36,342 nucleotides of DNA from a virus: the IMG/VR virus record IMGVR_UViG_3300044845_000500, positions 1 to 36,342 of that record. One strand, written 5' to 3'. Below are positions 2,723-34,259 of this stretch, piece after piece; position 1 is the stretch's first letter; every line of letters begins with the position of its first letter. The translations under genes and the position numbers were made by a program. The notes beneath the pieces were generated by a model that did no database searches, was not told the DNA's origin, and was given only the letters and a program-made list of their open reading frames with translations.

Positions 2723-2874
2723 GGGGTGTCGGGTGACGGTGGTGGGACGATTTCAATGGTGGTGCCAACGCAATCGGGCTCTTGCGATGGGCACGCTAAT
2801 TCCCAGTGTGCTAGTTTGCTGAGTGCTCGACAGTTGCAGCACTGGCGCGGCGTCGTTGTTGGCGTGAGGCTCAT
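2719..2874 (-). CDS. 51-residue Cys-rich microprotein in the lysis cassette
   Basis: ATG at 2874 overlaps the stop of the lipoprotein gene and TGA overlaps the start of the lysin gene, both by ATGA. It contains CCNC near residue 12 and two more cysteines (ACPSQEPDC), which could bind a metal, and a Pro-rich tail. It sits between two lysis genes; a regulator or accessory of lysis is conceivable but not shown. Confidence 0.55.
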   Translation of the reverse strand: MSLTPTTTPRQCCNCRALSKLAHWELACPSQEPDCVGTTIEIVPPPSPDTP

Positions 2875-3065
2875 TTAGTCGCCTCCGGTTTCACCTTTCG
2901 CCATGGCGCTTGAACAGAGACCACAGCTTTCCCGTCCGCATAGGACACAGTAGCAGGCAGCCCGAAGGCGTCGGTTTGATAGGCGAAAGACAGCCCGTTG
3001 GTTCCCGTTCCCGCGCACGACGGCAGCAAAATGGCTGCGAGGATGGAAAGGAGGAGTGGCTTCAT
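2871..3065 (-). CDS. small lipoprotein, candidate outer-membrane spanin
   Basis: A 64-residue protein from ATG 3065 (overlaps the upstream stop); a longer frame exists but this start gives a clean lipoprotein signal. Residues 1-16 are Lys plus a hydrophobic core ending LLPSC, a lipobox with Cys17 as lipidation site. The mature part is short and polar. Rz1-type o-spanins are small lipoproteins located next to endolysin genes, so this is a candidate, but no matching inner-membrane spanin is clear; the neighbouring 82-residue protein lacks a transmembrane segment. Confidence 0.6.
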   Translation of the reverse strand: MKPLLLSILAAILLPSCAGTGTNGLSFAYQTDAFGLPATVSYADGKAVVSVQAPWRKVKPEATK

Positions 3066-3310
3066 GGCGTGGTGGTCGGCCCGACTGGCGGAATGAGCAT
3101 GGGCTTGAAGTTCTGAAGCACCCACTTGCAGTATTGGCCGTAAAGCGACCCGAGAGCCTCCGCAGCCTCGCCGATGGCTTCGATGGCCTTGGCGATCTTG
3201 TCAGCCTGCTCCAGAGTCAGCGGGGGCGGCGTGATGATGACGGGCGGGCGAACTGGTCCGGGTTCTCCAGTGACTGGTGGTCCTGATTCTTCGGTGGTGG
3301 ATTCGCTCAT
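3062..3310 (-). CDS. small Pro-rich protein of the lysis region
   Basis: An 82-residue protein from ATG 3310. The first third is acidic and Pro-rich (PVRPPVIITPPP), the middle is a helix of about 30 residues (LEQADKIAKAIEAIGEAAEA), the end is Pro-rich again. The leader upstream is A-rich (AATAACAAACC) without Shine-Dalgarno. Not recognised; position between fibre and lipoprotein suggests a virion or lysis accessory. Confidence 0.6.
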   Translation of the reverse strand: MSESTTEESGPPVTGEPGPVRPPVIITPPPLTLEQADKIAKAIEAIGEAAEALGSLYGQYCKWVLQNFKPMLIPPVGPTTTP

Positions 3311-3331
3311 GGTTTGTTATTGGTGATGGTA

Positions 3332-5869
3332 TTAGTTGGCTAGGATTCCCTTGTTTTTGAGCGCAACAATTAGCGTGCCGAGAATGTCGGCAAGTTCTTC
3401 AACTGTTGTTGCGTTGGCGTCGCAAGTGCGGTCGGTGGTGATGTTCGTAAACGTCGTCCACCCCGTCTCCGCGACAGCCACAGTGCCTCCAGCGAAGGCG
3501 AAAGCGCCGTCATCGCGGACGGTGAAGCGAGCGGTGCCGCTGCTGTTCTCAACTAGCAAACCGACGCCTGTCGAGGTTCCCGCACCGCGCACCTGGAGCC
3601 GTGCCGTAGGCTGCGAGCTTGAAGAAAAGACATTAGAGCCAATCCCCGTGTTGCCGTTGTCTGAAGTCCATACGGACACAACCGGAGTGGTGGTGCCGTT
3701 TGGTGTTGTTAGCATTCCAACCCCAGATCCGTAAGCCGACCCGTCTATCCAGTTTTCTGTTGCAAATGCTCTGATTCCTACGCTTACGCGAAGACTGGAG
3801 CTTGATGACGATCCGCCGATGCTCATTCCCCCAAGTCTATCATTCGCCGCCATCGCTGCTCCATCATTGGAAAACACTGCAAAAAACGCACCCCCTAGTG
3901 CCCCGGATGATGCCGTGTTTTCGCCAACGATGGTACTGGCGGTGGTTGTGCTGGCAATTAACGGGGTCAGTCCGTTGGATGTAAAAGAACTCAGGGCCGC
4001 GGACGTGTTCTGTATCCTTGAAAAACCGCCGCTTCTTGATAGCTCAATCCAGTTCACCCCATCAGAGATGAGGGTGATGGAATCCTTCTGCCCCAGTGCG
4101 CTCCAGTCTCGATTCAGGAAGCAAACACCCGATCCAGACGAGTTCGCTTGCCCATTGAGAAGTTGAACAAAGAAAGCCGACTGGACGTTCTCAAGAAAAA
4201 GCAACTGGCCCGTTTTTAGCGGAGCAGTTAAAACGATGCTTCTGTTTGATGCCGTTGCCGAGTCAGAACTAAGTCGGACGTATCCGCTGTGAGTCTGAAC
4301 GACTTGGTTGTCGGCGGTTACTGGGATTGTGGTGGTTGATCCTTTCAGCGCCACCGGCTCCCGTGGTTCAATTCCCGCCGCGAACAAACCAACCCGCGCC
4401 CCGACTTCATTCTGCCCGGCCTGATTGTAATGAACCGTGTCGGCCAGCATTGACCGCGCCGAAAATGTGTCTGTGTCCCGGTATGCGATCAAGGTTTTGT
4501 TGTCCGCCGCTGCGACGTTTTCTTGAGCGCCGCGAACCGCCGCAGACCCCACGTCGCTTGCCGATGTCCTCACTCCAGTCCGCACGAGCCACAGTGGGAG
4601 ATTGGTGTCAATGTTGGTGCGGTAATAAGCCAGCATCGTTGTCAGTGCGGTCTGATACTGCGCTTGTGTGATCGTCCCGGAATTGATGTAAATCGCATCC
4701 TGCTCTCCCTGTAGCCAAATAATGCCAGCCATTACCACCTGATAACCTGCTGCTTCAAACGCGGCCTTAGCGGCGAGATACCGACTGACAACAGTGGCGC
4801 GAAGTGCGCCCGAAACGTCAAAGTTACCGTTGCCTCCGTCTGCCAGTGACGATTGCGCCGCCCCGTCGATCATCACGCCAGCGACAATCCCGACCTGTAG
4901 CCCAGTAACTGAAATGTAGGCGTTAGCGAATGCTGCCGCGCACGAAGTTCCAAGGGTTTGACCACCTGATGTTCCTGTGGTCAGCGTCAACGCCTGCACG
5001 CCGCCAGAGGATGTCCATTGATACGCCCCAGCCATCGGCGTCGGGGCTTGCGCTGCATTTCCTCCGGCTCCGTAACTGTTTGATTGGCCTGACAGGCAAA
5101 AAAGATGGATGATGTTGTTTTTCGTCGCCCCGGCGGCGATGCCAGCCAGCTTCGTCACCTGCGCGGGCAGCATGACGCCAGCGTTTGTTCCGTCTGCTGC
5201 CGGGATGGTGGCATCCGTGCCGGTGTCGCTGTTGATGACAACCTGCGTCGGTGAAACCGTGGCGCTGAGGTTGGTGTCGCCCCCTCCTCCACTGAACAAC
5301 ACCCAGAAACTCTCCCATTCCATCCCCACTCCCGGCTCGTCGTCCACCGTGCTGAGGTTGTCTGCGGTGCAGATGTAGGCGGTGGTGCCTACCGTGACGA
5401 CGGTGCCGGTGACGTAGCTGCGGCCGGCGGCCCATGCCACGCCGCCTTTCTCGATGAGGATGGACGTGGCGGGCGGGTCGGCGGTGAGGCGGCTGACGGC
5501 GTGCCACCCCAACAACAAGTCTGCGGCGGCGAGAGTGTACAGTCGATCAGCATCCCCGACGCCGTACAGCACCAACCAGCAGGCGCGGACGCTGTTCGGT
5601 GTGACGGTCTGGTTGGTCTGCGGGCTGTCGAAAGTGACCTCAAAGCTGGTGGCATCAGCCGCAACGCTGACGGTGGTGGATGCCAGTGGCGCAGTCTCGG
5701 CGGCGACGTTGCGGGACGTGTGGATCTCCGCCGTCACCGTGAGCCCCGATGGAAGGGTTTCCCCGGCCCTCAGCGTACACGCCAGCTTCAGCGGGTTCGC
5801 CTGCGGGTGTTCGATCCGCAGGATGTTCAGCCGTTGGAGGCTGACTTCAATGTTTGCGGTGCGAATCAT
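3332..5869 (-). CDS. tail fibre/tip protein with SGNH (sialate O-acetylesterase-type) domain
   Basis: An 845-residue protein. Residues 1-130 resemble BppU-type baseplate attachment domains. Residues 140-190 have the WAAGRSYVTGTVV...Y pattern of carbohydrate-binding CBM5/12 modules. Residues 253-500 form an SGNH hydrolase of the SASA type: GQSN with Ser263 as likely nucleophile, WLQGEQDA (385-392), and DTVHYN with Asp477 and His480. The remainder is Ser/Thr/Gly-rich fibre sequence. The SASA domain suggests that the phage removes O-acetyl groups from a surface glycan while binding. Its start overlaps the holin-like gene stop (ATGA). Confidence 0.85.
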   Translation of the reverse strand: MIRTANIEVSLQRLNILRIEHPQANPLKLACTLRAGETLPSGLTVTAEIHTSRNVAAETAPLASTTVSVAADATSFEVTFDSPQTNQTVTPNSVRACWLVLYGVGDADRLYTLAAADLLLGWHAVSRLTADPPATSILIEKGGVAWAAGRSYVTGTVVTVGTTAYICTADNLSTVDDEPGVGMEWESFWVLFSGGGGDTNLSATVSPTQVVINSDTGTDATIPAADGTNAGVMLPAQVTKLAGIAAGATKNNIIHLFCLSGQSNSYGAGGNAAQAPTPMAGAYQWTSSGGVQALTLTTGTSGGQTLGTSCAAAFANAYISVTGLQVGIVAGVMIDGAAQSSLADGGNGNFDVSGALRATVVSRYLAAKAAFEAAGYQVVMAGIIWLQGEQDAIYINSGTITQAQYQTALTTMLAYYRTNIDTNLPLWLVRTGVRTSASDVGSAAVRGAQENVAAADNKTLIAYRDTDTFSARSMLADTVHYNQAGQNEVGARVGLFAAGIEPREPVALKGSTTTIPVTADNQVVQTHSGYVRLSSDSATASNRSIVLTAPLKTGQLLFLENVQSAFFVQLLNGQANSSGSGVCFLNRDWSALGQKDSITLISDGVNWIELSRSGGFSRIQNTSAALSSFTSNGLTPLIASTTTASTIVGENTASSGALGGAFFAVFSNDGAAMAANDRLGGMSIGGSSSSSSLRVSVGIRAFATENWIDGSAYGSGVGMLTTPNGTTTPVVSVWTSDNGNTGIGSNVFSSSSQPTARLQVRGAGTSTGVGLLVENSSGTARFTVRDDGAFAFAGGTVAVAETGWTTFTNITTDRTCDANATTVEELADILGTLIVALKNKGILAN

Positions 5870-10442: not shown

Positions 10443-11279
10443 TCAGACTCCGGCGAGGTGGTTCCGGAGGTGGTCGCGGAATGAGCCGCCCCGCTTCCCT
10501 GTCAGCAGGGACTCACTGACGACGGCGGAGCGTTGGCGGGCGGTCTTGGCGCGGAACATGTGGGTGGTGTTCCGGCGAGCCTGTTCCATGACGTGACGGT
10601 AGAGGGCGGCGGTGCGGACGGCTTCGAGGGCGTACAAGAAAGGATGTTCTCCCACAGGGTAGCCCGGGAGGGCGTTGGCTGCGTCGAGGTCGTTACTGGC
10701 GGCCTTCACCATGTCCTGAAGGCGAAGGCCGGGCATCGTAATGCTTTCCTCAGTGAGGTGGAGGAAGGGCTGTTGAGCGGTCCCGCTCAACTTCACTGGC
10801 ACACAGCCGCAGGTGATGGCAGCCGCGGCGATGTGGAGCGGCAGCGCCGGGAATGGAGTCTTGGCGGAGAGGGTGGCTGTGATGCAATCCCGTTCGATCT
10901 TCGCCATTCCGGCATGCGACAAAAGCGGAATGAGTATGCAAGCCGGAGTCTCCTGCGGCCTCCATCCGCCGCCGTTGCTGCCCGTCTCGATGAAGGCCCC
11001 GTTGCACTTCCAATCGAACACGGACGGACTCAGTGACTGGATGCGTTCCGCTGTGTCAGCCGCAAACAGAGCGGCGCGAAACGGCGAGTCCGACGGCAGC
11101 GTCCCGATCTTGCGTTGATTCAGCAGCCGGCTTGCCTGCGGAACGTGAGAGCGGACGAACCACGTCGGCGTTTCGTCGCCCGTGGCGTCGGCCCGGTAGT
11201 TTTTCGGTGCAATGTCGGCGTGGAGGACGACGCGGAGGGCCGCGGCGGTTGCTGGGTCGTAGACGTTGAGCTGGTTCAT
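10443..11279 (-). CDS. structural protein of the tail gene cluster, function unknown
   Basis: A 278-residue protein; ATG 11279 (MNQLNVYDPA) is chosen because a terminator-like hairpin covers the region upstream, which a longer frame would translate. Mixed composition, several cysteines, C-terminus strongly basic (RGGSFRDHLRNHL). Not recognised. It lies between the tail-tube-like genes and the chaperone. Confidence 0.6.
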   Translation of the reverse strand: MNQLNVYDPATAAALRVVLHADIAPKNYRADATGDETPTWFVRSHVPQASRLLNQRKIGTLPSDSPFRAALFAADTAERIQSLSPSVFDWKCNGAFIETGSNGGGWRPQETPACILIPLLSHAGMAKIERDCITATLSAKTPFPALPLHIAAAAITCGCVPVKLSGTAQQPFLHLTEESITMPGLRLQDMVKAASNDLDAANALPGYPVGEHPFLYALEAVRTAALYRHVMEQARRNTTHMFRAKTARQRSAVVSESLLTGKRGGSFRDHLRNHLAGV

Positions 11280-11286
11280 GGGTATG

Positions 11287-11328
11287 GAAAAATGAACGGG
11301 CACGCGGCACGGACTGCCAACGTGCCCG
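11287..11328 (-). terminator. terminator-like hairpin between tail genes
   Basis: Arms CGGGCACG (minus strand, 11328-11321) and CGTGCCCG (11304-11297), eight perfect pairs, with a nested GGCA/TGCC, then TTCATTTTT. It follows the short tail protein gene and could reduce readthrough into the downstream gene, giving strong expression of the upstream tail-tube candidate. Confidence 0.55.
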
Positions 11329-11351
11329 CTCACCCATTCCCCGAATTGTTG

Positions 11352-11831
11352 TCACTCGTTCCCGAAGTAGACGTAGGAACCAGTATTGAGATAAGCAGGG
11401 TTCCAGAGATTGGCAGTGAAGCGGAATTGATTCAGGGCACCGGATGGCACATTGAGAGATGGCTCCATGAGTTCCCACCATGAGTCAGCGTCCGGAGTGA
11501 CTCCGCCTTGGTAGTTGCTGGTATAGTTAGCAATCCCTGCCAATGGCAGCCCTTTCCCGGGGTGCGCGTCCGGGATGCTGCCAGCAATGTTGTAGACCTT
11601 CCCGTCGAATTGAAGCCGCACACTAGGGTTCGTGCTGACGGCGATAGCGACGAGCCCTTCGTGATTCTTGTGTTCGGTTCGCTCGCGGGCGGTGGTCTTG
11701 TCAAAACCGTTATCAATCAAAAGCCCGTCTTCATCAGCCTGTGCGCCCACGAACCCATCATGCCCGACCATGCTGTGAACGAGGATTGCGGCGGCTGCGG
11801 CTGAGGAGGTATCAAAAGATGCGGCTGGCAT
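11352..11831 (-). CDS. tail-tube candidate, short paralogue
   Basis: A 159-residue protein from ATG 11831. Its first 20 residues (MPAASFDTSSAAAAAILVHS) nearly match those of the 417-residue neighbour upstream, so the pair shares an N-terminal module. The rest is beta-rich with aromatic residues (YTSNYQGG, SYVYFG). A terminator-like hairpin follows, and a repeat-family leader precedes it, as expected for a highly expressed virion protein such as the tail tube. The function is inferred from context. Confidence 0.6.
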   Translation of the reverse strand: MPAASFDTSSAAAAAILVHSMVGHDGFVGAQADEDGLLIDNGFDKTTARERTEHKNHEGLVAIAVSTNPSVRLQFDGKVYNIAGSIPDAHPGKGLPLAGIANYTSNYQGGVTPDADSWWELMEPSLNVPSGALNQFRFTANLWNPAYLNTGSYVYFGNE

Positions 11832-11848
11832 ATGAGAGTCGGTGGCGG

Positions 11849-11883
11849 GTTGGCTTCACTTCCCACCGGAGGTGTCAAAGCCC
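11849..11883 (-). repeat. intergenic repeat family A, copy 2 (long form)
   Basis: Thirty-five bases that match 17221-17255 at 29 positions. The element includes the stop codon of the upstream gene (GGGCTTTGAC), CCGGTGGGAAGTG and GAAGCCAAC. It lies 18 bases before the next start. Confidence 0.55.
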
Positions 11884-13128
11884 ATTCAGGTCGGCGGTGA
11901 GGATGCCCGTGGCGATGGTGACAGGCTGCCCTGCCCCCGTGGAAATCAGCCGCTCCCGGCGAATGAACCACGTCCCCACCCCTTCGATGCTGGCGACGAG
12001 GACCTGCACCGCCCAGCCCCCAGCCGGTGCGATGTTCGTTCCTGTGAGGGTGGCAGCATTCCCGCAGGTGTCCCCCGTGATGTCCCACGTTGAGCCGTCC
12101 CGTGGCACTGTGAACACGTCCAGCGGTTCGGACCCGATGACCGTTGCCGGGTAGCAGGAAATCGTCACCTCGGCGGCGTCCCCGACAAGGTCAACGGTCG
12201 GATCGGCGAACAGGTAGCGAAGCGCCAGCTCCGCAGGCGTCGTCCCGCCGCTCAATCCATATGGCCACTCCAGCTGGGCGGAGAAATCGCCCGCATCTGC
12301 CCGCAGCGCATGGTTCGCCGCAAGTGTGACCGTTGCCCCCAGTGCAACGTCCAGCGCCACCACCGCGCCACGGAGGAACCTGACGTGGGTAACAGTGCGG
12401 CTGCTGCCCGTGGACGGGAAGGTGATTTCTGCCGAGGTGATAACGGACGTGTCACCACCCGCCACAATCGGCGCGGCTGCCGTCCACGGGTCGCACACGA
12501 TGGCGGAGGAAACCGCCGTGCCACCGCTCGCAGGGTCGCCGTTGTAGAGTGTGGCCGTGAGGTCGCCAGTGATGGCGGCGGCTTGGAAGACGGCTGCAAG
12601 GAGCGCATCAGTGGCACTGGCTGGCAGTTCCGCCACTGCCTGCGTTGCAAGGTATGTGAAACTGCTGGCTGTGCCGCTGGGATAGGCGGCGGTGTCGAGG
12701 TCCGCAAACAGCCGCTCCACCTGAAAGGCGATGTTGGGGAGCTGGCCGGCGCCCGCCGTCTGCTGCGGGGAGACGTAAACCAGCGTCCCGCTGTCCTCGA
12801 ACTGCATCGCCTGCGTCCCGTTCACGAAGTCCAGAGCGCGGGCGGAGAGAGCGCGGCCCGGATGGTAGTCCGCCAGCCCGTCCCACTCCAAGACGTCCGC
12901 TTGGATGCTGTACACCAACCGCTGGTCATAGTGGATGGAGAGGACGAGGTTCCCCGCGCTGTCGGTCTCCTCAATCCGCTGTGAGCTGCCCGACCGCTGG
13001 CACGACTGCACCAACAGCGCATCCTCCGCCTGGAGGGTCTCGAAGACGGCGGGGTCGAGTGCTTCCATCGTGTGAACGATGAGGGCTGCGGCTGCGGCTG
13101 CGGAGGCGTCGAATGAAGCGGCGGGCAT
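11875..13128 (-). CDS. large tail protein, long paralogue of the 159-residue neighbour
   Basis: A 417-residue protein from ATG 13128. The N-terminus (MPAASFDASAAAAAALIVH) matches that of the next gene. The following half is beta-rich and has Ala/Thr repeats (TDALLAAVFQAAA; TLAANHALRADAG) as in virion surface proteins. No sheath or tube family motif is recognised. Candidates are tail tube with an added domain, or a second tail-shaft protein. Confidence 0.6.
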   Translation of the reverse strand: MPAASFDASAAAAAALIVHTMEALDPAVFETLQAEDALLVQSCQRSGSSQRIEETDSAGNLVLSIHYDQRLVYSIQADVLEWDGLADYHPGRALSARALDFVNGTQAMQFEDSGTLVYVSPQQTAGAGQLPNIAFQVERLFADLDTAAYPSGTASSFTYLATQAVAELPASATDALLAAVFQAAAITGDLTATLYNGDPASGGTAVSSAIVCDPWTAAAPIVAGGDTSVITSAEITFPSTGSSRTVTHVRFLRGAVVALDVALGATVTLAANHALRADAGDFSAQLEWPYGLSGGTTPAELALRYLFADPTVDLVGDAAEVTISCYPATVIGSEPLDVFTVPRDGSTWDITGDTCGNAATLTGTNIAPAGGWAVQVLVASIEGVGTWFIRRERLISTGAGQPVTIATGILTADLNGL

Positions 13129-25354: not shown

Positions 25355-25557
25355 GTGATAGGGTCTTGTGGTTCGTTCTTCCTCGGCCTCCCGCCCTTTC
25401 GGGCAGGATGGCACGTTGCGCACACTCGCTCTCCGGATGCCTTCCGAATGCGCTTGGAGCCGTTGCAGGCTGGGCATTGCCAGCGCGGCCGGCCGATGTG
25501 GACGGCTCCCCGTGCGGCGCGTTTACTGGCGGCGTGGATGGCTTGGCGGCTGGGCAT
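25351..25557 (-). CDS. small zinc-ribbon protein
   Basis: A 68-residue protein from ATG 25557. CPACNG and CATCH, sixteen residues apart, form a CxxC-x16-CxxC zinc ribbon. Both ends are basic (KRAARGAV; KGGRPRKN), which suggests nucleic-acid binding. Its start overlaps the previous stop by one base. Confidence 0.65.
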   Translation of the reverse strand: MPSRQAIHAASKRAARGAVHIGRPRWQCPACNGSKRIRKASGERVCATCHPARKGGRPRKNEPQDPIT

Positions 25558-25748
25558 CAGGCGGCGGGTTGTTCGGTGTGCCAGCATGCGCCCTCGTCAT
25601 CGCTGATCGTCCACTCTGCTTTCCGGAAGTCGGGGTGGTCTTCGTTCCGGGTGCGCTCCTGCTTGGCGAAGGCACGGGCTTCGTCGAGGGTGGCGAAGGA
25701 CTGGAGGTCGGTGGAGTTGCCGTGCTGGCTGAGTGAGACTGTGAACAT
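25557..25748 (-). CDS. small protein of the early block
   Basis: A 63-residue protein; ATG 25748 (MFTVSLSQHGN) chosen over a longer frame because promoter-like sequence lies in that extension. Content: DEARAFAKQERTRN helix and an acidic end (SDDEGACWHT). Function not recognised. Confidence 0.55.
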   Translation of the reverse strand: MFTVSLSQHGNSTDLQSFATLDEARAFAKQERTRNEDHPDFRKAEWTISDDEGACWHTEQPAA

Positions 25749-25794
25749 GGGAGTGGTCGGTTGGGGTTGTTCGCTGCCATCTGGCAACACCGCC

Positions 25795-25822
25795 ACCATA
25801 CCGCCTTCCTTGCATCCGTCAA
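25795..25822 (-). promoter_or_regulatory. promoter before the 63-residue gene
   Basis: TTGACG (25822-25817), 16-base spacer, TATGGT (25800-25795). The sequence upstream of the -35 (AAAAAGAATCCA, 25850-25830) is nearly the same as at 24950-24931. This looks like a duplicated promoter. Confidence 0.55.
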
Positions 25823-25866
25823 CGTCTTTTCTGGATTCTTTTTCTTTTCCTTCTGCGGGGTCTTCC

Positions 25867-26289
25867 TCACGCAATGCTGCTCAGTAGCCGCCACCGCTGG
25901 GTTGCCGGATTGTGAAGGTAGTGGTCGGATGGGAGGAGTTCGCCAGTGGTGAGGTAGCCGAGAACGTCGGCGAGTGGCCAGGTGCCGATGATCTCCCCGT
26001 TGCGCCGGATGGTCAGTTCGTCCGGCACGTCGGCGAGTGAGCTGGCTGGATGCGGGGATGAGGCTGGGCGTTTCTGAGCGGCGAGGATGGCGGCGGTCTG
26101 GCGTTCCAGAGCTTCGGCTGCGGCGTGTTCTGCGGCTGCCCTGTTGCCGAGGACGACGGCGATGAGGACGCCGAGCGGGCCGAAGAGGAGGCCTAGGACG
26201 AAGCCGTTCCCGCGTTGGCCGGGGCCTGCGAGCGTGCAGCCGATGAGGGCGCAGAGAATCCAGACGAAGAGGATGGCGATGGGGTCCAT
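25867..26289 (-). CDS. membrane protein with C-terminal GYF-like domain
   Basis: A 140-residue protein; ATG 26289 (MDPIAILFVWIL) is chosen because the longer frame would read through the hairpin array. Two hydrophobic segments (residues 3-20 and 30-48) are followed by a helix with Ala/Glu and a domain around RRNGEIIGTWPLADVLGYL, like the GYF_2 type found in many Verrucomicrobiota membrane proteins. The C-terminal domain probably binds peptides at the membrane. Its partner is unknown. Confidence 0.65.
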   Translation of the reverse strand: MDPIAILFVWILCALIGCTLAGPGQRGNGFVLGLLFGPLGVLIAVVLGNRAAAEHAAAEALERQTAAILAAQKRPASSPHPASSLADVPDELTIRRNGEIIGTWPLADVLGYLTTGELLPSDHYLHNPATQRWRLLSSIA

Positions 26290-26298
26290 GGTGCGGCG

Positions 26299-26327
26299 AT
26301 GGTAGGCGACTGTGCGGCCGGATGCAA
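26299..26327 (-). promoter_or_regulatory. promoter giving a very short leader
   Basis: TTGCAT (26327-26322), 17-base spacer, TACCAT (26304-26299). The -10 ends only ten bases before the ATG at 26289, so the transcript would start close to the codon. Confidence 0.4.
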
Positions 26328-26362
26328 TCCGCCAACTTTTCCCATCCCACCTCGGGACCGCC

Positions 26363-26728
26363 ACTGCGTGCTGCGTGCTCCCCCTAACGGGGAAGCCGCA
26401 CGCAGGCACGCAGTGCGGCGACTGCGTGCGATGCACTGCGTGCGAACGCAGGCACGCAGTGACAGCGTACTGCGTGCGCACGCAGTCTCTGCACGCAGGC
26501 ACGCAGTGCGATCGGCGAACCGTCGGTAGTACCGACACTTCGATTTCGACCGCACGGGAGAAACCCAGCGTGCCAGTGTGCTCCCCCTAAAGGGGAGCCG
26601 CACACTCGCACACTGGGATTTCCCCTCACCGTGCCAGCGTGCGGTGTCAGTGTGCGCACGCTTGGAACACTCGGAAAAAGCGAGCGTTCCCAGTGTGCAA
26701 AAACTCCGCCCGCACACTCGCACACTGG
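26363..26728. repeat. array of inverted repeats in two sequence flavours
   Basis: The only stretch of more than 300 bases without a convincing gene (26290-26733). ACTGCGTGC occurs at 26363, 26421, 26435 and 26469; its complement GCACGCAGT at 26406, 26452, 26478 and 26499. CCAG(T/C)GTGC occurs at 26565, 26573, 26634 and 26690, GCACACTGG at 26608 and 26720. Two 52-base hairpins (26363-26414, 26565-26616) share TCCCCCTAA, GGGG and GCC in the centre but have different arms. A perfect 18-base palindrome lies at 26469-26486. The RepA-like ATPase gene is next to it, so this may be the replication origin, or a structured RNA. Confidence 0.8.
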
Positions 26729-26733
26729 CAATT

Positions 26734-28203
26734 TCAATCCTCACTCTTCACCCCTTTCAGAACATAGACCCTAACCGGAGAACCACCGGAGCGACTGTCT
26801 CGCGGCTGCGGGAGGTACTGAATAGTCTCACCCGTCGCTGCTTCAACCGCCGTTGCGGCCTCGTCGCGCGACACCCCAAACGCCCGCTTCACCTTCGCCA
26901 CCAGTCCGTCAGGGGAGTTCACTCCACCCCTCAACTCACCCCCAGCCTTCCCCAGCACCTCCGCCACCTGCTGCGGCGTCAGCTTCTGACGGGCAGCCTT
27001 CCGCGGCTTCCCGCCGAACGACTCCGTCCACTCGTCGAGGTCGAACTCATCCGGCTCCAGCCTCCGGTAGGTCATCGTCGCGTCATCCAGACGGGCGGCG
27101 AAAGCTCCCCACTGCGGCCCGTTGGAACACTTGCCACAGCCGAAAATCACCACGCCCGGGTAGTCCACGCCCGCCGCCGCCACGTTGATCTGGCTCCGCA
27201 GCCACCCATACAGCACCTTGCTATTCCGGGCGAAGCTGCTCGCGTCATCCCCGAAGACCTTGCCCGCCTCCATACTCCCGGTCCGGCCGTGATGCACCAC
27301 CAACGGGACGCGGCGGGGATTGCCTGCGCGGATCACCTCACCGATGCCCTGACAGGTTTCCGTCATGCCGTCGTCCTTGTTGAGGTCTCCTCTCCCCGCA
27401 TCCCGCAGGGGGTCGATCACGCAGACGAGCGGGTCGAACGCTGCGATGGTGGCGGCGATCCGCTCGCGGTCGGGGTGGTCGGGAGCCATGCAGATCGAGC
27501 CGAAGTCGAGGGCGTCCACGTTGAGAATCCGCAGGCAGGCGTTCACCTCCCGCCGTTCGGCCGCCGTCAATCCCTGACACATCAGAGAGAGGTCGTGCTT
27601 GAGCCGCCGGCCGCTGTTTTCAGTTTGCAAGAACAACCACTTCGCGCCCGGCGCTCGCGTCTCCAGCCCGAGGAACGGGCGGCCGAGGATCGTGAAGAGG
27701 GCAGCTTGCAGGGTGATGCGGCTTTTGCCGACGCCGGGGGAGCCGACCAGCGCCGACCGCTCACCAGCCGACAGGACACCGCCCGCCCAAATCTCATCAG
27801 CCGGGTTCGGCTCATGCGCCATCAGGGCGTCGAGGGTCCAGAGTGGCAGCGTGCCGTCTGCAGGTACTGCAGGTGCTGCAGTCTTCGCCGCGGCTGCTGC
27901 CTTGGCGATCTCCCATGGCTCCCCGGTAGCCTGCCAGTGACAGGTGCAGGACACCGCCCGCTCCTCCACCTTGAGCATCGCAGTGCACCGCGGACAGGGT
28001 AGCACGAGCCGCCCGTGGAGAGGTGAGATTCCGCCGGCCAATCCGACCGACATCCACGACGCATGAAGAACCTGCTGCCACGCCTCCGGCGTGAAGCGGT
28101 GGACCCACTGTTTCGCCGGGGGTGAGGGCTGCGGGAATGGGGTTACAGTCGCCGTGGGCGGCGGTCCTAGGAGGGGTTTCGAGGCGATGAATTTGATGGC
28201 CAT
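26734..28203 (-). CDS. RepA-like RecA-fold ATPase (replication)
   Basis: A 489-residue protein; ATG 28203 chosen within a longer frame. CPRC at 70-73 and CTCH at 86-89 form a zinc site in the N-terminal part; Walker A GSPGVGKS is at 154-161; Walker B is LVCVIDPLRD (259-268). Matches AAA_25/RepA-type hexameric helicase-loader or helicase proteins that go with primase genes. The N-terminal zinc domain resembles primase-type elements. It overlaps the end of the primase-polymerase-like gene by 37 bases and is followed by the hairpin array. Confidence 0.8.
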   Translation of the reverse strand: MAIKFIASKPLLGPPPTATVTPFPQPSPPAKQWVHRFTPEAWQQVLHASWMSVGLAGGISPLHGRLVLPCPRCTAMLKVEERAVSCTCHWQATGEPWEIAKAAAAAKTAAPAVPADGTLPLWTLDALMAHEPNPADEIWAGGVLSAGERSALVGSPGVGKSRITLQAALFTILGRPFLGLETRAPGAKWLFLQTENSGRRLKHDLSLMCQGLTAAERREVNACLRILNVDALDFGSICMAPDHPDRERIAATIAAFDPLVCVIDPLRDAGRGDLNKDDGMTETCQGIGEVIRAGNPRRVPLVVHHGRTGSMEAGKVFGDDASSFARNSKVLYGWLRSQINVAAAGVDYPGVVIFGCGKCSNGPQWGAFAARLDDATMTYRRLEPDEFDLDEWTESFGGKPRKAARQKLTPQQVAEVLGKAGGELRGGVNSPDGLVAKVKRAFGVSRDEAATAVEAATGETIQYLPQPRDSRSGGSPVRVYVLKGVKSED

Positions 28204-29234
28204 GGGGTGGTAGGTTGATGGTGAAAATGAACCTTCTGGTGAGCGCCCTTCGCGCTGACACCAGCAGGGAGGCGGACAAGCTGGCACTTCGGCCAGGTGT
28301 GGAGGTCGCAGCCGCAGTAGAGGCGGGCGAACGCGAAGAGGTCGCGGGCGTCGTCCTCACTGGTGATCGGCCCGTACCAGCCGTGCAGAGACTTGTTCCC
28401 GGAGTGAACGGCGAGCCTCAGCCGCGGCCAACCGGCGCCCGCCGCCATGCTGTCGAGATACCAGTGGAGGGCGGCTTGCTCATCTGCAGTGCCAGTGTCG
28501 AACTCAATCACCAGCCACTGCCGCGGGCCCGTGTTCGCCAAGCAGCGGGAGGTGATGCGCCCGTCGAGCCCCGCCCCCTGCGGGCCGGTCATGGCGGAGG
28601 GGACGACGTAGGTGTAGCCGTGTTCTCTGAATGCCCACTTGTCCCGCCGGCGGGTGAGGGCTGACGACAGGTCCGACTTCGCCAAGCAGATCCACTCCGC
28701 ACCTGGGAAGAGGATGTCGAGCCAGTCGCCCGCGTCCCATGTGGATTCCGGCCAGTTGTCTTCGAGGAAATGCACCTCGCGCCGACTCATGCAGTGCATC
28801 CACAGGTCATCGAGGGTGAACTTCCGCCCTAGCGGCTTTTCATCCTCGCCGTCGTCTATGGCGAACACGCCGGACTCGTTCGCGTCACATAAGGCGATCT
28901 CCCTCAGCGCCTCGCAGGGCAGCGGCCACGGCGTCGCGTCAGGAGCGTGCGGCCGCACCGTCCCCGGCTTCCCTGACGGGAGAGGGCGGCGGGGTTGCTG
29001 CTTGTCGCCGCGCTGCCACTGGACGGCATGGCTGTTGCGGACGGCGTCGCGGATTTCCCTGTCACTGACCGCCCGCCCAACTTTCTCCACCGCAGCTCTC
29101 AGCGTCCGCTTGATGCCGTCGGGCGGCATGTGAGGGTGAAGTTGACGGGCGACACTGAACAGCCAGCCATGGACGCCAGCACCGGCGAGTGGCGGAGTGG
29201 CGAGCTTTTCCTTGAGCCATGCGGGGAGGGTCAT
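28167..29234 (-). CDS. archaeo-eukaryotic primase (prim-pol)-like protein
   Basis: A 355-residue protein; ATG 29234 overlaps the methyltransferase stop. EFDTG at 244-248, SGNKSLHGW at 278-286 and RLPAG at 321-325 match the catalytic Asp, sXH and basic motif of AEP-type primase-polymerases. Only one Asp of the usual DxD pair (Asp246) is obvious. The N-terminal 100 residues are a helical zone of unknown role. Together with the ATPase downstream it forms a self-contained replication initiation module. Confidence 0.75.
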   Translation of the reverse strand: MTLPAWLKEKLATPPLAGAGVHGWLFSVARQLHPHMPPDGIKRTLRAAVEKVGRAVSDREIRDAVRNSHAVQWQRGDKQQPRRPLPSGKPGTVRPHAPDATPWPLPCEALREIALCDANESGVFAIDDGEDEKPLGRKFTLDDLWMHCMSRREVHFLEDNWPESTWDAGDWLDILFPGAEWICLAKSDLSSALTRRRDKWAFREHGYTYVVPSAMTGPQGAGLDGRITSRCLANTGPRQWLVIEFDTGTADEQAALHWYLDSMAAGAGWPRLRLAVHSGNKSLHGWYGPITSEDDARDLFAFARLYCGCDLHTWPKCQLVRLPAGVSAKGAHQKVHFHHQPTTPWPSNSSPRNPS

Positions 29235-30076
29235 GGCGTTAGAGAGTTGAGCATTCGCCATGCGAGCGCCGCCACTGCTGGAACTTGCCCGTTACCGATG
29301 CAGCGCAATCGGTCCACCCTAGCGGCCACCCCATGAGCCACTCGACCCACGTCGGGTTCAGACTCCCACCAGCTTGCGTCCTCAAGTTGTCTCCTCCCGT
29401 CCGCTTGTCGGATCGTCCCGGCCCACCCATTCCGTCTGCCTGCGTCGGTGTCGCCCATGTCCTCATCCGCTTCTCCTCCATTTCCGGCGGCAGATGTTTC
29501 GTCGCCCCGACTGCTCCCGGCAGTGTGAAGTAATGCCTCCCGTTCGCCCGCTGATACCCCGCTCCCACTGCGTCGTTGCGGGTCGGCGTCGGCCATGATC
29601 CAGATGCGTTCTCGCTTGTGCGGTGCGCCGGCGTCGATAGCTCCCAGCACTCCCCATTGCGCATCATACCCCATCGCGGCCAAGTCTCCAAGAACGGTTC
29701 CAAGTCCCCGAGAAGTGAGAACTGGTGAGTTTTCCACGAAGACGAAGCGGGGTCGTACCTCGCCAATGATGCGTGCCATGTGCGACCACATGCCGCTACG
29801 GGCTCCGGTGATGCCTGCGCCTTTTCCTGCGGCGCTGATGTCCTGACAAGGGAAGCCGCCAGACACCACGTCAACACAGCCTCGCCATGGGTGTCCGTCG
29901 AAGGTCTGTACGTCATCCCAGATCGGGAACGGCTCAAGGCATCCGTCGTTTTGCCTGGCGACCAGCACGTCCCTTGCGTGGGCGTCCCACTCGACTGCGC
30001 AGACGGTGCGCCATCCGAGGAGTTTGCCCCCGAGTATGCCTCCTCCAGCGCCCGCGAAAAGTGCCAGCTCATGCAT
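29231..30076 (-). CDS. DNA cytosine-C5 methyltransferase
   Basis: A 281-residue protein; ATG 30076 (MHELALFAGAGGG). Motif I FAGAGGG at 7-13, motif IV GGFPCQ with catalytic Cys77, motif VI ENS (115-117), motif VIII RERIW (155-159) and a C-terminal RCIGNGQVP. Short for the family, with a variable target-recognition region. Likely protects phage DNA from cytosine-specific host restriction. A second long reading frame covers almost all of this gene. Confidence 0.88.
   Translation of the reverse strand: MHELALFAGAGGGILGGKLLGWRTVCAVEWDAHARDVLVARQNDGCLEPFPIWDDVQTFDGHPWRGCVDVVSGGFPCQDISAAGKGAGITGARSGMWSHMARIIGEVRPRFVFVENSPVLTSRGLGTVLGDLAAMGYDAQWGVLGAIDAGAPHKRERIWIMADADPQRRSGSGVSAGEREALLHTAGSSRGDETSAAGNGGEADEDMGDTDAGRRNGWAGTIRQADGRRQLEDASWWESEPDVGRVAHGVAARVDRLRCIGNGQVPAVAALAWRMLNSLTP
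29239..30072 (-). CDS. overprinted reading frame on the C5 methyltransferase gene
   Basis: A 277-residue frame from ATG 30072, four bases after the methyltransferase start. It is not random in look: SSSWKTHQFSLLGDL near residue 110, TWPRWGMMRNGECWEL near 130, WPTPT and WATPT repeats, and LNPTWVEWLMGWPLGWTD near the end. I recall stand-alone phage proteins with the same WPTP and WVEWLMGWP signatures, often annotated as methyltransferase-linked. Either this is a true overlapping gene, or a known by-product frame of such MTases. Function unknown. Confidence 0.5.
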   Translation of the reverse strand: MSWHFSRALEEAYSGANSSDGAPSAQSSGTPTQGTCWSPGKTTDALSRSRSGMTYRPSTDTHGEAVLTWCLAASLVRTSAPQEKAQASPEPVAACGRTWHASLARYDPASSSWKTHQFSLLGDLEPFLETWPRWGMMRNGECWELSTPAHRTSENASGSWPTPTRNDAVGAGYQRANGRHYFTLPGAVGATKHLPPEMEEKRMRTWATPTQADGMGGPGRSDKRTGGDNLRTQAGGSLNPTWVEWLMGWPLGWTDCAASVTGKFQQWRRSHGECSTL

Positions 30077-30254
30077 GTGCCTCCCCCCGCTCAATAAACC
30101 CCAGCCCCAGACAGTGCTCACATCGTGCCAGCACATCCTTGCACCCACCCTCCTGCTCACCGTAGTGACCGACGCCGGAGGTGATCCAGCCGCGGCCGGA
30201 GCAGGTCGGGCACTTGCCGGGGGCGGGCTTCGCCTTCTTCTTCTTCGGCTTCAC
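30069..30254 (-). CDS. small zinc-finger (DnaJ-type) protein
   Basis: A 61-residue protein; CPTCSGRGWI and CEHCLGLGFI are two CxxCxGxG knuckles of the DnaJ central-domain type. The N-terminus is Lys-rich (KPKKKKAK). ATGA overlaps link it to its upstream neighbour and eight bases overlap the methyltransferase. Probably binds zinc and nucleic acid or protein. Confidence 0.7.
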   Translation of the reverse strand: MKPKKKKAKPAPGKCPTCSGRGWITSGVGHYGEQEGGCKDVLARCEHCLGLGFIERGEAHA

Positions 30255-30484
30255 GCGCCCTCCTTTCCAGCCGCAGCATCAGCCGCAGCCTCCGCCCGTA
30301 CGATCCTCTCCCGCAGCCGGTGAACGTCGGCGTTGAGCCAGCCTGACGGGATGCCGAGCGCATCCCATGCGGCTTGGTGGCGCGGGAGGAGGCGTCTGAG
30401 TATCGCATCCCCATCCCTTCGGGTTGCCGTCGCCATCTCCGCACGGGTGCGGAGGATTCCGGTGATCAGGTCGTCGGCGGTCAT
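30251..30484 (-). CDS. small helical protein
   Basis: A 77-residue protein; ATG 30484 overlaps the upstream stop. Helical and Arg-rich (TADDLITGILRTRAEMATATRR; RLRERIVRAEAAADAAAG). No motif recognised. Expressed with its neighbours by translational coupling. Confidence 0.6.
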   Translation of the reverse strand: MTADDLITGILRTRAEMATATRRDGDAILRRLLPRHQAAWDALGIPSGWLNADVHRLRERIVRAEAAADAAAGKEGA

Positions 30485-30747
30485 GGGGTCTCCTCCTCTC
30501 CATGCGGCATCACCCCGCCGCGGTTCATCCTGTCCATCGGCAACTCTTCGCCCCACGCGCCCGCCTCCTCGCACCACCGCTGAATCGCATCATAGCATTC
30601 CGGGTGATACCTGCCGTTGTAAAAATCGCCACTGACAACTCCGCTGGTCGCAACAGACGGGTCTCCTTGGTTGATTGAATACCAGCACCAGTCACATTTC
30701 CGGGCGTGCCGCGTGCGCTTAACGTCGCGTTTGTGGTGAAAGCTCAC
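30481..30747 (-). CDS. small treble-clef-like zinc protein
   Basis: An 88-residue protein: KCDWCWYSI near residue 17 and a HPEC near residue 48 give a CxxC...HxxC layout, with an aromatic core (GDFYNGRYH). The fold could be a treble clef. Basic N-terminus (KRDVKRTRHARK). Confidence 0.65.
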   Translation of the reverse strand: MSFHHKRDVKRTRHARKCDWCWYSINQGDPSVATSGVVSGDFYNGRYHPECYDAIQRWCEEAGAWGEELPMDRMNRGGVMPHGEEETP

Positions 30748-32252
30748 GCCGCCCTCCTTCCGATCCGGCGATTGAACTCACGCCCAGCCTCCGCGCCCGT
30801 CATCGTGTCGCAGTTCGCCACCCCCAGCCGCCGCAACAACGCGACCTGTTTCGGCGACGCCAGCCCCAGCCGCTTGCGCTCAGCCACCCGACGCAACAGG
30901 GCGGCGGCGTAGCCCCTGCACATCGCTTCTCCCTCCGTCCACAAGCCGAACTCCAGCAGGTCGCGCAACTGCCCCTCCGTCGCTGGTTCCGCTTCCGCAT
31001 CCGTCGTCGGCGTCCACTGAGCAAGGTCGCCGTCATGCAAGGCCAATGCCCACGCGACCGGATCGACCAGCCCACGGGGTGCCTTCTTCTTCGCCGCTTC
31101 CGCCAGCTTCCGTTCCAGGCTCTCCGCCATGTTCACCTGAGCTTTCTCCTCCGCCTCCAGCAGGTCTTCCCCGAGGTCGAGTTGAGCCTGTAGGGCGTCC
31201 CGATGCTCCGGCGAGCCCGCGCAGATGTCCGCCGGTTTACACAGTCGGTGGTCGCCGGTGATCCAGAGCGGATCCAAGATCAAGCAGTAGTCCTTCCCCG
31301 GACTCAGCCGCGTCCCGCGTCCTACCATTTGAGAGTAGAGCGCCCCGGATGCCGTCGCCCGCAGCATGACCAAGCAGTCCACCGACGGCTCATCATAACC
31401 TTCCGTCAGCAGCATTGCGTTACAGAGCGCCTTCGGCCCCGGCGTCGAAAACCACGCCAGCAGCTCCGCACGGTCGGGTGAGTCTCCGGCAACGTGTCGG
31501 GCGTCGATACCCCTCGCCTGGAGGGCGGCGGCGAACGACTCCGACGTCTCGCACAAGGGGAGGAAAACCAGTGTCTTGCGGCCCCAGATTTCATCAGCCA
31601 CAGCGTCAGCCACCGCAGCCAGCCGCGGAGAGAGCGCCCCGCCAACGTCGCCGGCCGCAAGGTCGCCCCTCTTCCTGCGCAATGCCGACACGTCCACTTC
31701 CACGGGCAGCTTGAGGGCGCGGATCGGTGAGAGGTAGCCGGAGCGGATCAGGTCGAGCAATGTCACCTCGCAGGCGAGGCGTTCGAAGAACGACCCGAGC
31801 TTCCTGTTGTCCGACCTGCTAGGGGTGGCGGTCACTCCCAGCACTCGCGCCTCGCTGAAGTGATCCAACACGGTCCTCCACTCGCTGGCAAGGCAGTGGT
31901 GCGCCTCGTCGGCAATGACGAGGTCGAACGCCTTCGGGTCGTACTTGCCCAGCCTCGCCTTCATGCTTTGCACCGAAGCGACGACAACGCCGTGCCCGGG
32001 AAGCGCCCGTGATGCGCCCATCTCGACGCTGGCGAAGATGCCCGTTGCGGCGTGCAGCTTCTCCACGGCCTGCTGTATCAGCTCCGCCCGGTGCGCGAGG
32101 ATGAGCGTGCGGCCGGGTTCGACTGCGGCCAAGTGGGAAAAGAGGATGGTTTTCCCGCCCCCCGTCGCCATGACGGCGAGTTGCTTTCGAGCCTCCGCCC
32201 ATCCGGACTGGATGGAGTCGAAGGCGTCCTGTTGATAGGGTCGCAGGTTCAT
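30744..32252 (-). CDS. SF2 DEAH-box helicase
   Basis: A 502-residue protein. ATGGGKT (29-35, motif I), DEAH (115-118, II), TATP (141-144, III), and MVGRGTRLS (309-317, VI) make a full SF2 helicase core. The region after residue 370 is a charged helical extension. It probably remodels DNA or RNA during phage replication or recombination. Both ends overlap neighbours by ATGA. Confidence 0.9.
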   Translation of the reverse strand: MNLRPYQQDAFDSIQSGWAEARKQLAVMATGGGKTILFSHLAAVEPGRTLILAHRAELIQQAVEKLHAATGIFASVEMGASRALPGHGVVVASVQSMKARLGKYDPKAFDLVIADEAHHCLASEWRTVLDHFSEARVLGVTATPSRSDNRKLGSFFERLACEVTLLDLIRSGYLSPIRALKLPVEVDVSALRRKRGDLAAGDVGGALSPRLAAVADAVADEIWGRKTLVFLPLCETSESFAAALQARGIDARHVAGDSPDRAELLAWFSTPGPKALCNAMLLTEGYDEPSVDCLVMLRATASGALYSQMVGRGTRLSPGKDYCLILDPLWITGDHRLCKPADICAGSPEHRDALQAQLDLGEDLLEAEEKAQVNMAESLERKLAEAAKKKAPRGLVDPVAWALALHDGDLAQWTPTTDAEAEPATEGQLRDLLEFGLWTEGEAMCRGYAAALLRRVAERKRLGLASPKQVALLRRLGVANCDTMTGAEAGREFNRRIGRRAA

Positions 32253-32836
32253 GGCTGCCTCCTTTCTTCCAAGGGCTTGCGGCTCACGGCGTCGATCATG
32301 GCGATCAGGTTGGCGGCGGTCTCAATCTGCTGCTTCTCCAGCGCCAGCAGTTCATACCGCCAGACCTCTCCGACCCTCGCACCCCATCTGGCGTACACCA
32401 TCAAGTCTAACGCCTCCTCCAGCGCATGCCTCAGCCTCACCCGGAGCGAGGCGTGATTGTCCTCCAGCGTCGTCCCATACTTCTTCACCCCCAACCGTTG
32501 CCGTGACGCAATCTCAGCACACAGCCGCTCCGCCGTGTCAGGATGAACGGCCTTCCGGATCGTCGCACACACCATTGCCTCCACTCCCGTCGCTGGCGGG
32601 TACGCTTTCGCCCCCTCCTCCGCATGCCGCACCGCCGACTCATGCCGCACCGGGCAGGGCGTGTCAGCGTGACCGGGCTGATTGCAGAAGTCGCAGGGTG
32701 GTTTCAGTTCCGCCGCTTTCTGGTCCCAGCTCTTGCGGAAGATCGGGCCCAGCCGCTCCCACGTCGGGCGGGGCCTGCCGTCGAGGAACGTGGGGTCTTT
32801 CGCCACGTCCACGTTGTACAGTTCTTCGCCGCTCAT
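32249..32836 (-). CDS. MazG-like nucleotide pyrophosphohydrolase with zinc knuckle
   Basis: A 195-residue protein; ATG 32836 overlaps the upstream stop. CDFCNQPGHADTPCP gives a zinc knuckle near residue 48. RQRLGVKKYGTT, followed by HALEEALDLMVYARWG, matches the KYG and EExxD helices of all-alpha (MazG/dATP-type) pyrophosphohydrolases. Likely cleans up or adjusts dNTPs during replication. The zinc part is not usual for MazG. Confidence 0.65.
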   Translation of the reverse strand: MSGEELYNVDVAKDPTFLDGRPRPTWERLGPIFRKSWDQKAAELKPPCDFCNQPGHADTPCPVRHESAVRHAEEGAKAYPPATGVEAMVCATIRKAVHPDTAERLCAEIASRQRLGVKKYGTTLEDNHASLRVRLRHALEEALDLMVYARWGARVGEVWRYELLALEKQQIETAANLIAMIDAVSRKPLEERRQP

Positions 32837-33441
32837 GCCGCCCTCCTCTCTTCTTTCGGCACTGAGATCTTCGCAGCCAGTCCGGCGTCGTTGACGACCT
32901 TGGCGAACCGCTCGACGGGGACAGTAAACAGACTCGCAGGGACGCGGAGCCTCGCAGCCGCAGCCGGGATCCAGTCCCCGCTCACTCCACCACCGCACTC
33001 GATCTTCCAGAGTACGGAGTCGGAGACCGCGCAGCCCTCACCCATGATCTCCAGCGACCACGGCACCTTCTTCCCGCACTTCGACGCCGACAGTCGCAGC
33101 CACTTCAGCCGCTGTTGAGGAGTCACCTGATCCAGCGGATCAGCCACCACCACCCGCCGACCCTTACGGATAGCGGCCTCACAGAAACGGTCGCAGATGC
33201 TCTTCCGCAGCCACGCTCCCCACACCATGCCGGGAGCCGGACGGAACGCCTGTTCGCAGACCCAGCAGACCTTGGTGACTTCCGCTCTCCACTTGTCCGA
33301 CTGCATCCGGCGACCCTTCGCGGAGCATGGCTGAGAGCAGTATTTCCGAGCCTTCCAGACGTGCCCGCGCTCGCCGTTTGACGGCAGGAACGACTTCCCG
33401 CAGGCTTTGCATTCCTTCGCTTTGACGGTGGCGAGGCTCAT
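32833..33441 (-). CDS. double zinc-finger protein
   Basis: A 202-residue protein with two Cys4-type fingers: CKACG...CSQPC (residues 11-39) and CWVCE...CDRFC (59-87), with aromatic residues between. The C-terminal two-thirds are alpha/beta with no recognised domain. Probably a nucleic-acid-binding protein of the replication block. Confidence 0.65.
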   Translation of the reverse strand: MSLATVKAKECKACGKSFLPSNGERGHVWKARKYCSQPCSAKGRRMQSDKWRAEVTKVCWVCEQAFRPAPGMVWGAWLRKSICDRFCEAAIRKGRRVVVADPLDQVTPQQRLKWLRLSASKCGKKVPWSLEIMGEGCAVSDSVLWKIECGGGVSGDWIPAAAARLRVPASLFTVPVERFAKVVNDAGLAAKISVPKEERRAA

Positions 33442-33659
33442 ACGTCCTCCTTCTTTTTAGGGTGGAGGATCAGCAGAAACTGTCCTTCCTGACGGGTGAC
33501 GCAGCCGGGTGCAATCTTCTCCGACGCCTTCGCAAACTCGGCAAAAGCGGTCACGGAAACGGGCAGCCGGATCATGGCGAAGCATTCGTTCGGGATGTTT
33601 CGCATGACTGACATTTCAGCCAGCCGCTCAACGATAGTATCGACAACGTCCGCGCTCAT
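33438..33659 (-). CDS. small protein of the early block
   Basis: A 73-residue protein. Helix-strand look (VDTIVERLAEMSVMRNI; FLLILHPKKK). The C-terminus is basic. ATGA overlaps at both ends. Not recognised. Confidence 0.6.
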   Translation of the reverse strand: MSADVVDTIVERLAEMSVMRNIPNECFAMIRLPVSVTAFAEFAKASEKIAPGCVTRQEGQFLLILHPKKKEDV

Positions 33660-33943
33660 GCGTCCTCCTCTCCGAAAAGGCTGGGGGTGCCGTCGTTGTC
33701 GCGCTCAATCGCATGCACGCCCTTCACGGTCGTTTTCACGCTCCACGACACCGCCGTCTCGACGGTCGATTTATCCAGATCAGCCGTCAGGGCGAGTGAG
33801 AGCTTGAACTTCAGCGGGGCGTCCCCCTCGCGTTCGTCCGCCATCTTCTGAATAGCCATCAGGATTTCGGTTTGCCGCTCCTCCATTGCGCTTCGGAGGT
33901 CTTCGCCCCCGCGTTCTGCCATCTGTTCGAGTATGTTATTCAT
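33656..33943 (-). CDS. small protein of the early block
   Basis: A 95-residue protein. N-terminal helices (EDLRSAMEERQTEILMAIQKM), then KFKLSLALTADLDKSTVETAVSWS and an acidic end (SLFGEEDA). The middle part resembles phage proteins of unknown function annotated beside recombination genes; I cannot name the family. Confidence 0.6.
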   Translation of the reverse strand: MNNILEQMAERGGEDLRSAMEERQTEILMAIQKMADEREGDAPLKFKLSLALTADLDKSTVETAVSWSVKTTVKGVHAIERDNDGTPSLFGEEDA

Positions 33944-34259
33944 GGTTTTCTAGGTATGGTTTGAGGTCGTCAGCGTGCCTAACTACTACCCCGACGCCGC
34001 CCGCACGGTTGACGGCGTCGAGAAACTTTTCCTGCTCAGGACTCAGCCGATCCCGGCCCACCTTGATCTCGACCGCGAGGAAGCGGCCTTTCTTGGCGTG
34101 GAAGCCAATGACGTCAGAGACTCCCCGGAGTCCGACGAACCGCCGGAACTGGCCCTTGTCGCAGACCGCCACGTTGTTCTGCCGCCAGCACACATAGCCC
34201 AGCTTGGTGAATACCTTCACGGCGTAGGCGGCTAACTGGTTCGCGTTGGTGATCTTCAT
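33936..34259 (-). CDS. VRR-NUC nuclease
   Basis: A 107-residue protein: GVSDVIGF (Asp49), then LAVEIKVG (Glu64, Lys66) and SPEQEKFL (Gln76) form the PD-(D/E)XK signature of VRR-NUC domains. Length matches stand-alone phage VRR-NUC proteins. Probably a structure-specific endonuclease acting in recombination or replication. It overlaps the next gene by eight bases. Confidence 0.85.
   Translation of the reverse strand: MKITNANQLAAYAVKVFTKLGYVCWRQNNVAVCDKGQFRRFVGLRGVSDVIGFHAKKGRFLAVEIKVGRDRLSPEQEKFLDAVNRAGGVGVVVRHADDLKPYLENHE

Follow-up and report, generated by a model that had tools for sequence, protein, structure and literature searches.

Plasmid pRN1 includes a 100-bp stem-loop located downstream of orf904, which codes for a primpol-helicase; this stem-loop is needed for replication and is movable, and a similar one has been reported at the 3' side of a replication gene of phage BIP-1 (PMC4234260). 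In the Streptococcus thermophilus phage Sfi21 a 302-bp noncoding element of the replication module, known as the PER element, works as an origin (PMC6356513). The oriV of RSF1010 has a different organization, in which RepC acts on iterons, RepA is the helicase, and the primase RepB' acts on the ssiA and ssiB hairpins (PMC4234260).

The DNA analyzed here, referred to as the window, comprises an entire IMG/VR virus record of 36,342 nucleotides. It includes a 366-base noncoding array of short repeats and hairpins that occupies most of one intergenic region, 5 nt away from the stop codon (26734) of a gene of the AAA_25 family on one side and about 73 nt away from the next start on the other. The position of this array, its iterons, and the recurrence of one of its elements behind other helicase genes lead us to consider it, with a probability of roughly 80%, as the DNA replication origin of the phage, of the noncoding iteron/hairpin type that lies directly downstream of a helicase/primase gene. 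The features of the region are as follows.

25867 to 26289, minus strand: gene for a small membrane protein on the far side of the array, with an 85%-identical ortholog in the relative G004
26363 to 26728, no strand assigned: whole iteron/hairpin array, proposed replication origin (repeats, folding, window ranking)
26363 to 26507, no strand assigned: block A, in which CTGCGTGC occurs 11 times without a mismatch, in both orientations (word count)
26362 to 26415, plus strand: hairpin H1, with arms made of block-A words (folding, arm alignment)
26379 to 26393, plus strand: conserved tip TCCCCCTAACGGGGA of H1 (motif scans)
26469 to 26486, no strand assigned: perfect 18-base palindrome ACTGCGTGCGCACGCAGT, consisting of two head-to-head words
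26565 to 26728, no strand assigned: block B, built mostly of CAGTGTGC; CAGYGTGC occurs 7 times without a mismatch, in both orientations, and diverged copies are also present
26564 to 26617, plus strand: hairpin H2, with arms made of block-B words (folding, arm alignment)
26582 to 26596, plus strand: conserved tip TCCCCCTAAAGGGGA of H2 (motif scans)
26664 to 26690, minus strand: small hairpin GGAACGCTCG-CTTTTTC-CGAGTGTTCC
26734 to 28203, minus strand: AAA_25 gene, of the RepA-like hexameric helicase family (PF13481, E 8.7e-21; phrog_3123/906)
28167 to 29261, minus strand: possible primase-polymerase gene, with AEP-like motifs recognized only by eye

The array resembles the pRN1 element in that both are large, structured noncoding stretches located immediately past a replication helicase/primase gene, and in pRN1 and its relatives, as here, sequence changes leave the structure intact. 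On the other hand, pRN1 is described with one stem-loop and a single protein that combines an SF3 helicase with a primpol, while the present locus has an AAA_25 protein, two hairpins with the tip, and many inverted iterons. The likeness to Sfi21 consists in a noncoding origin region within a phage replication module. It is by analogy with pRN1 and Sfi21 that the array is taken as an origin. RSF1010, which shares a RepA-type helicase, iterons, and primed hairpins, offers a biochemical model, and a RepA-like annotation is carried by some of the AAA_25 phage proteins. RSF1010 differs in that its iterons and its priming hairpins are separate, whereas in the array the iterons themselves form the hairpin arms; furthermore, no RepC-like initiator was matched among the proteins scanned, a subset of the ORFs of the record, and the primase-like neighbor lacks database support.

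The original prediction had placed the array beside a RepA-like ATPase gene and a primase-polymerase-like gene. The match to PF13481 bears out the first of these neighbors, the likely start of which is an ATG near 28203 (the longest ORF reaches 28287). The second could be confirmed neither by the family searches, which returned no match, nor by its poor structure model. The models predicted for the AAA_25 and the primase-like proteins had pLDDT values of 44 and 39 respectively and were unusable; the sole moderately confident part of the former is a small C-terminal helical segment which, as a guess, is possibly a DNA-binding domain. A C5 DNA methylase, a RadD-like helicase, and a VRR-NUC nuclease are encoded near the AAA_25 gene (29231-34259, minus strand), and the annotation of Alteromonas phage XX1924 shows a comparable kit of helicase, VRR-NUC, and methylase. 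On the other side, the membrane-protein gene has a weak match to DUF3792/TIGR04086; an ORF at 25523-26350 was discarded as the neighbor gene for being probably spurious, the likely gene being the one at 25867-26289.

All words of the array fit the degenerate sequence CWGYGTGC, of which 18 exact copies are found in both orientations within the two blocks. The record has 26 copies, so that only 8 are located in the remaining 36 kb, and whole-record shuffles gave 9.2. The two word families noted earlier, ACTGCGTGC and CCAGTGTGC, are each present in both orientations within the array, and the palindrome at 26469-26486 is indeed perfect. Direct 7-mer pairs numbered 146 against 10.2 +/- 4.2 in dinucleotide shuffles, and inverted pairs 142 against 11.2 +/- 4.6, more than 10-fold above the shuffles in both cases. 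Folding of both strands, which had been proposed as a check, was strong (z of -13.0 for the plus and -12.3 for the minus strand), with no shuffle equally good. Among 707 windows of 300 nt covering the whole record the array was the top site for inverted repeats, with an inverted 7-mer score of 107 compared to 16 for the next best site, and a phase-shifted slice of it ranked fifth among 10,273 windows of 240 nt taken from the record and from other phage loci, a comparison set that is enriched in hairpins through the choice of loci. The repeats and hairpins of the array are therefore far beyond chance. A change in GC skew, also suggested as a check, was looked for at the array and none was found; such a switch is a supporting sign of an origin and not a defining feature.

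The two hairpins, described before as sharing a core and differing in arms that pair with themselves, were recovered as such. Both carry the tip TCCCCCTAANGGGGA plus (A)GCC, with the tips spaced 203 nt apart. H1 has the plan word-word-tip-(A)GCC-word'-word' in block-A words and H2 the identical plan in block-B words. In a hand alignment of the arms, 4 of the 17 pairs had changed on both sides with the pairing intact, and one further pair had changed on one side, being A.C on the plus and G.U on the minus strand; the cores are distinguished by a single loop base and a 1-nt indel. The original prediction had read this preserved pairing as selection on structure. The pairing stands, while the inference is only half right: the arms co-vary because the word of each block changed throughout and the arms are inverted copies of the block iteron. 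Template-switch repair could be an alternative source of co-varying paired arms. Because inverted word copies or template switching yield the same pattern, covariation alone is weak evidence here, and function is better indicated by the conserved tip. Private iterons serving as arms around a shared tip account for arms that change yet still pair, with no need for an RNA function.

Given its short length, the tip TCCCCCTAANGGGGA can turn up by chance in a large collection, and at least 119 loci matched it. A tip set of 120 loci, 119 among the matches listed plus the window, was chosen for the 14-base tip only, and a control set was selected in the same manner with one permuted (reversed) loop. 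A search for AAA_25 was first run on 100 records behind tip, control, and relative loci, and a profile of our own, built from the AAA_25 domains, was then scanned over all tip and control loci. Among the matches listed, an AAA_25 ORF was present in 44 of the 120 tip loci, with the tip located 33-348 nt downstream of the AAA_25 stop codon in about 33 of those 44. When independent clusters were counted, again among the matches listed, the tip was found 1-400 nt downstream of an AAA_25 gene in 10 of 68, whereas the permuted loop had this position in 1 of 70 (Fisher p 0.004; 0.007 with the window left out). For a base picked at random from a tip-type locus, the chance of falling in that downstream zone is about 5%. 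The tip occurs in either orientation behind other AAA_25 genes. The ten AAA_25 helicases share about 25-30% mutual identity where alignable, and the genes are fused to different primase domains, including Prim-Pol, Toprim_3, PriCT_2, and a DnaG zinc ribbon; most of the PHROGs families matched are annotated as DNA primase or primase/helicase, the others as unknown. In seven of the ten tip families the hairpin arms reuse the short repeats of their own region above nearly all shuffles, while in the other three (L020, L033, and L067) this reuse was not above chance. Arm repeats found again in the same noncoding region include CCTCAGT/ACTGAGG (L045), CGTGTTCC (L056), and AGTGGACA (L083). The control loop yielded one family directly behind an AAA_25 gene. 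This family, to which L154 belongs, is of the PrimPol-AAA_25 type and has another palindrome, TGTCCCCGAATCGGGGACA, 10 nt past the stop codon in L154, L228, L243, and L249.

Long stems were found at 18% of the tips and 7.5% of the control loops, a modest excess, and we take the real signal of the tip to be its position relative to AAA_25. The idea that the tip matches form a single family of homologous elements was rejected, their arms and neighbors being unrelated. A tentative proposal, to which we give slightly less than even odds, is that the 13-base tip CCCCCTAANGGGG is a cis signal, e.g. a helicase-loading or priming site, shared by many unrelated AAA_25 phage replicons and carried on arms of private iterons that let the recognition words diverge while the tip stays fixed. 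An open-literature text search for the motif strings returned no report of the tip, and while this type of origin is already known, the CCCCCTAANGGGG tip recurring on private-iteron arms across unrelated helicase families appears, as far as the literature was searched, to be unreported.

The array combines a noncoding location after an AAA_25/RepA-like gene, direct and inverted repeats above chance, and an extended hairpin, and the earlier suggestion of a replication origin is well supported by this position, the iteron content, and the recurrence behind unrelated AAA_25 primase/helicase genes. At such an origin the AAA_25 helicase, or a partner, would recognize the CWGYGTGC words as iterons and assemble there. 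Words that face each other would extrude as hairpins upon melting or supercoiling, exposing the invariant CTAAN tip on single-stranded DNA, and the adjacent primase-like protein may then start a primer at the exposed CTAAN loop. The iteron words, being phage-specific, would drift together with the protein that recognizes them, and the arms would change with the words, while the tip would be held constant by its role in a shared step, either helicase loading or priming. It is rare for the origin of an uncultivated phage to be located, and a signature that requires only sequence, consisting of an AAA_25 gene followed by inverted short repeats and, in a subset, by a hairpin with the CCCCCTAANGGGG tip, points to such origins. 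Should the tip prove to be an initiation signal common to unrelated helicase-primases, it would provide a testable handle on the choice of priming site by RepA-like replisomes.

An improbable alternative is that the array is a transcription terminator or a protector of the mRNA 3' end, in which hairpins of the minus-strand RNA end or stabilize the AAA_25 transcript. Both neighbor genes are on the minus strand, the array lies directly past a stop codon, and two stem mismatches, A.C on the plus strand, pair as G.U on the minus strand only. In addition, the terminase relative G004, which shares the membrane-protein gene, has an ordinary U-tract hairpin in the same slot, followed by regulator-like genes. 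However, no U-tract follows the hairpins of the array, and the phage seems to use ordinary terminators elsewhere, as a canonical U-tract terminator-like hairpin is found at 24649-24627 (minus strand). A terminator requires no conserved tip and no dozen or more short inverted words, and the occurrence of the tip in both orientations behind other AAA_25 genes does not fit one.

As a check of the origin reading that is independent of the tip, 16 named phages were picked by similarity of the helicase protein alone. In nearly all of them a conspicuous noncoding gap with private short repeats (GGACA, GGTTCA, GGTACA, GGGAACG, GCAACCAAC, and others) follows the repA/primase gene. The 400 nt after this gene had the top inverted-repeat score of the locus in 15 of the 16, and when three of the genomes were checked in full, the region downstream of repA ranked first in all three (72 v 15, 54 v 14, and 30 v 15). 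The exact tip was absent from all 16, the nearest sequence being that of Dulem virus 35 (CCCCCTACGGGG), and for this reason the tip is not required for this type of origin; judging from these sequences, the layout is general, with the tip marking only a subset. Cultured phages that have this layout include Rhizobium phage RHph_Y3_1, Alteromonas phage XX1924, and Paenibacillus phage Vegas. In Edwardsiella phage eiAU (L303), about 900 nt of unannotated DNA with many GCAACCAAC repeats follow the helicase/primase gene (2785-3681), a region that is likely the origin of this cultured phage. It is common for an iteron array to bind the initiator as a means of control, and the present array adjoins an initiator-like gene, so that its repeats could instead control the copy number or the expression of the AAA_25 operon, or else form a partition site. 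We consider this about as improbable as a terminator: the array is located downstream of the gene and not at a promoter, as are the repeat regions of the 16 named phages, and no ParA/ParB-like gene was recognized among the proteins tested.

Even less probable is that the array consists of REP/BIME-like repeats, mobile, acquired from the host, and with no role in replication, as had also been suggested. Its palindromic units are intergenic, alternate in orientation, and belong to two word families, as would be expected of such repeats. Nevertheless, they form a single cluster in a fixed place behind a replication gene, with no dispersed copies in the record; no further copy of the extended motif was found in viral contigs or GTDB species genomes, and matches of the array DNA in phages and plasmids were at chance level, none of the distant ones being better than an E value of about 1. 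The further suggestion of a structured RNA draws weak support from the two pairs that are G.U on the minus and A.C on the plus strand, but no Rfam family reached its gathering score, the weak matches being mostly to miRNA models, to which any long hairpin conforms. Readings as an attC-like site or a CRISPR-repeat decoy were dropped by eye for lack of fit.

Relatives of the proteins were looked for as well. An exact-peptide search of viral contigs with the AAA_25 and primase-like proteins returned no relatives, and alignment of the terminase to GTDB species genomes gave no match. Fourteen loci related by their terminases (66-97% identity) have neither the tip nor any such array. Lack of conservation in related phages had been named beforehand as something that would refute the reading, and it was found in these terminase relatives, yet the AAA_25 protein was also not found in the 14 records, and the AAA_25 family profile gave no hit in the nine of them on which it was run. 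As the array is absent from these relatives and its slot is different in G004, it does not travel with the structural genes, and the replication genes of G004 look different from those of this phage. In G004 (L136), the regions 1344-2603 and 11017-12360 were read from their sequences as coding for an integrase and a sliding-clamp-like protein, which suggests that replication modules are swapped between phages that have the same structural genes.
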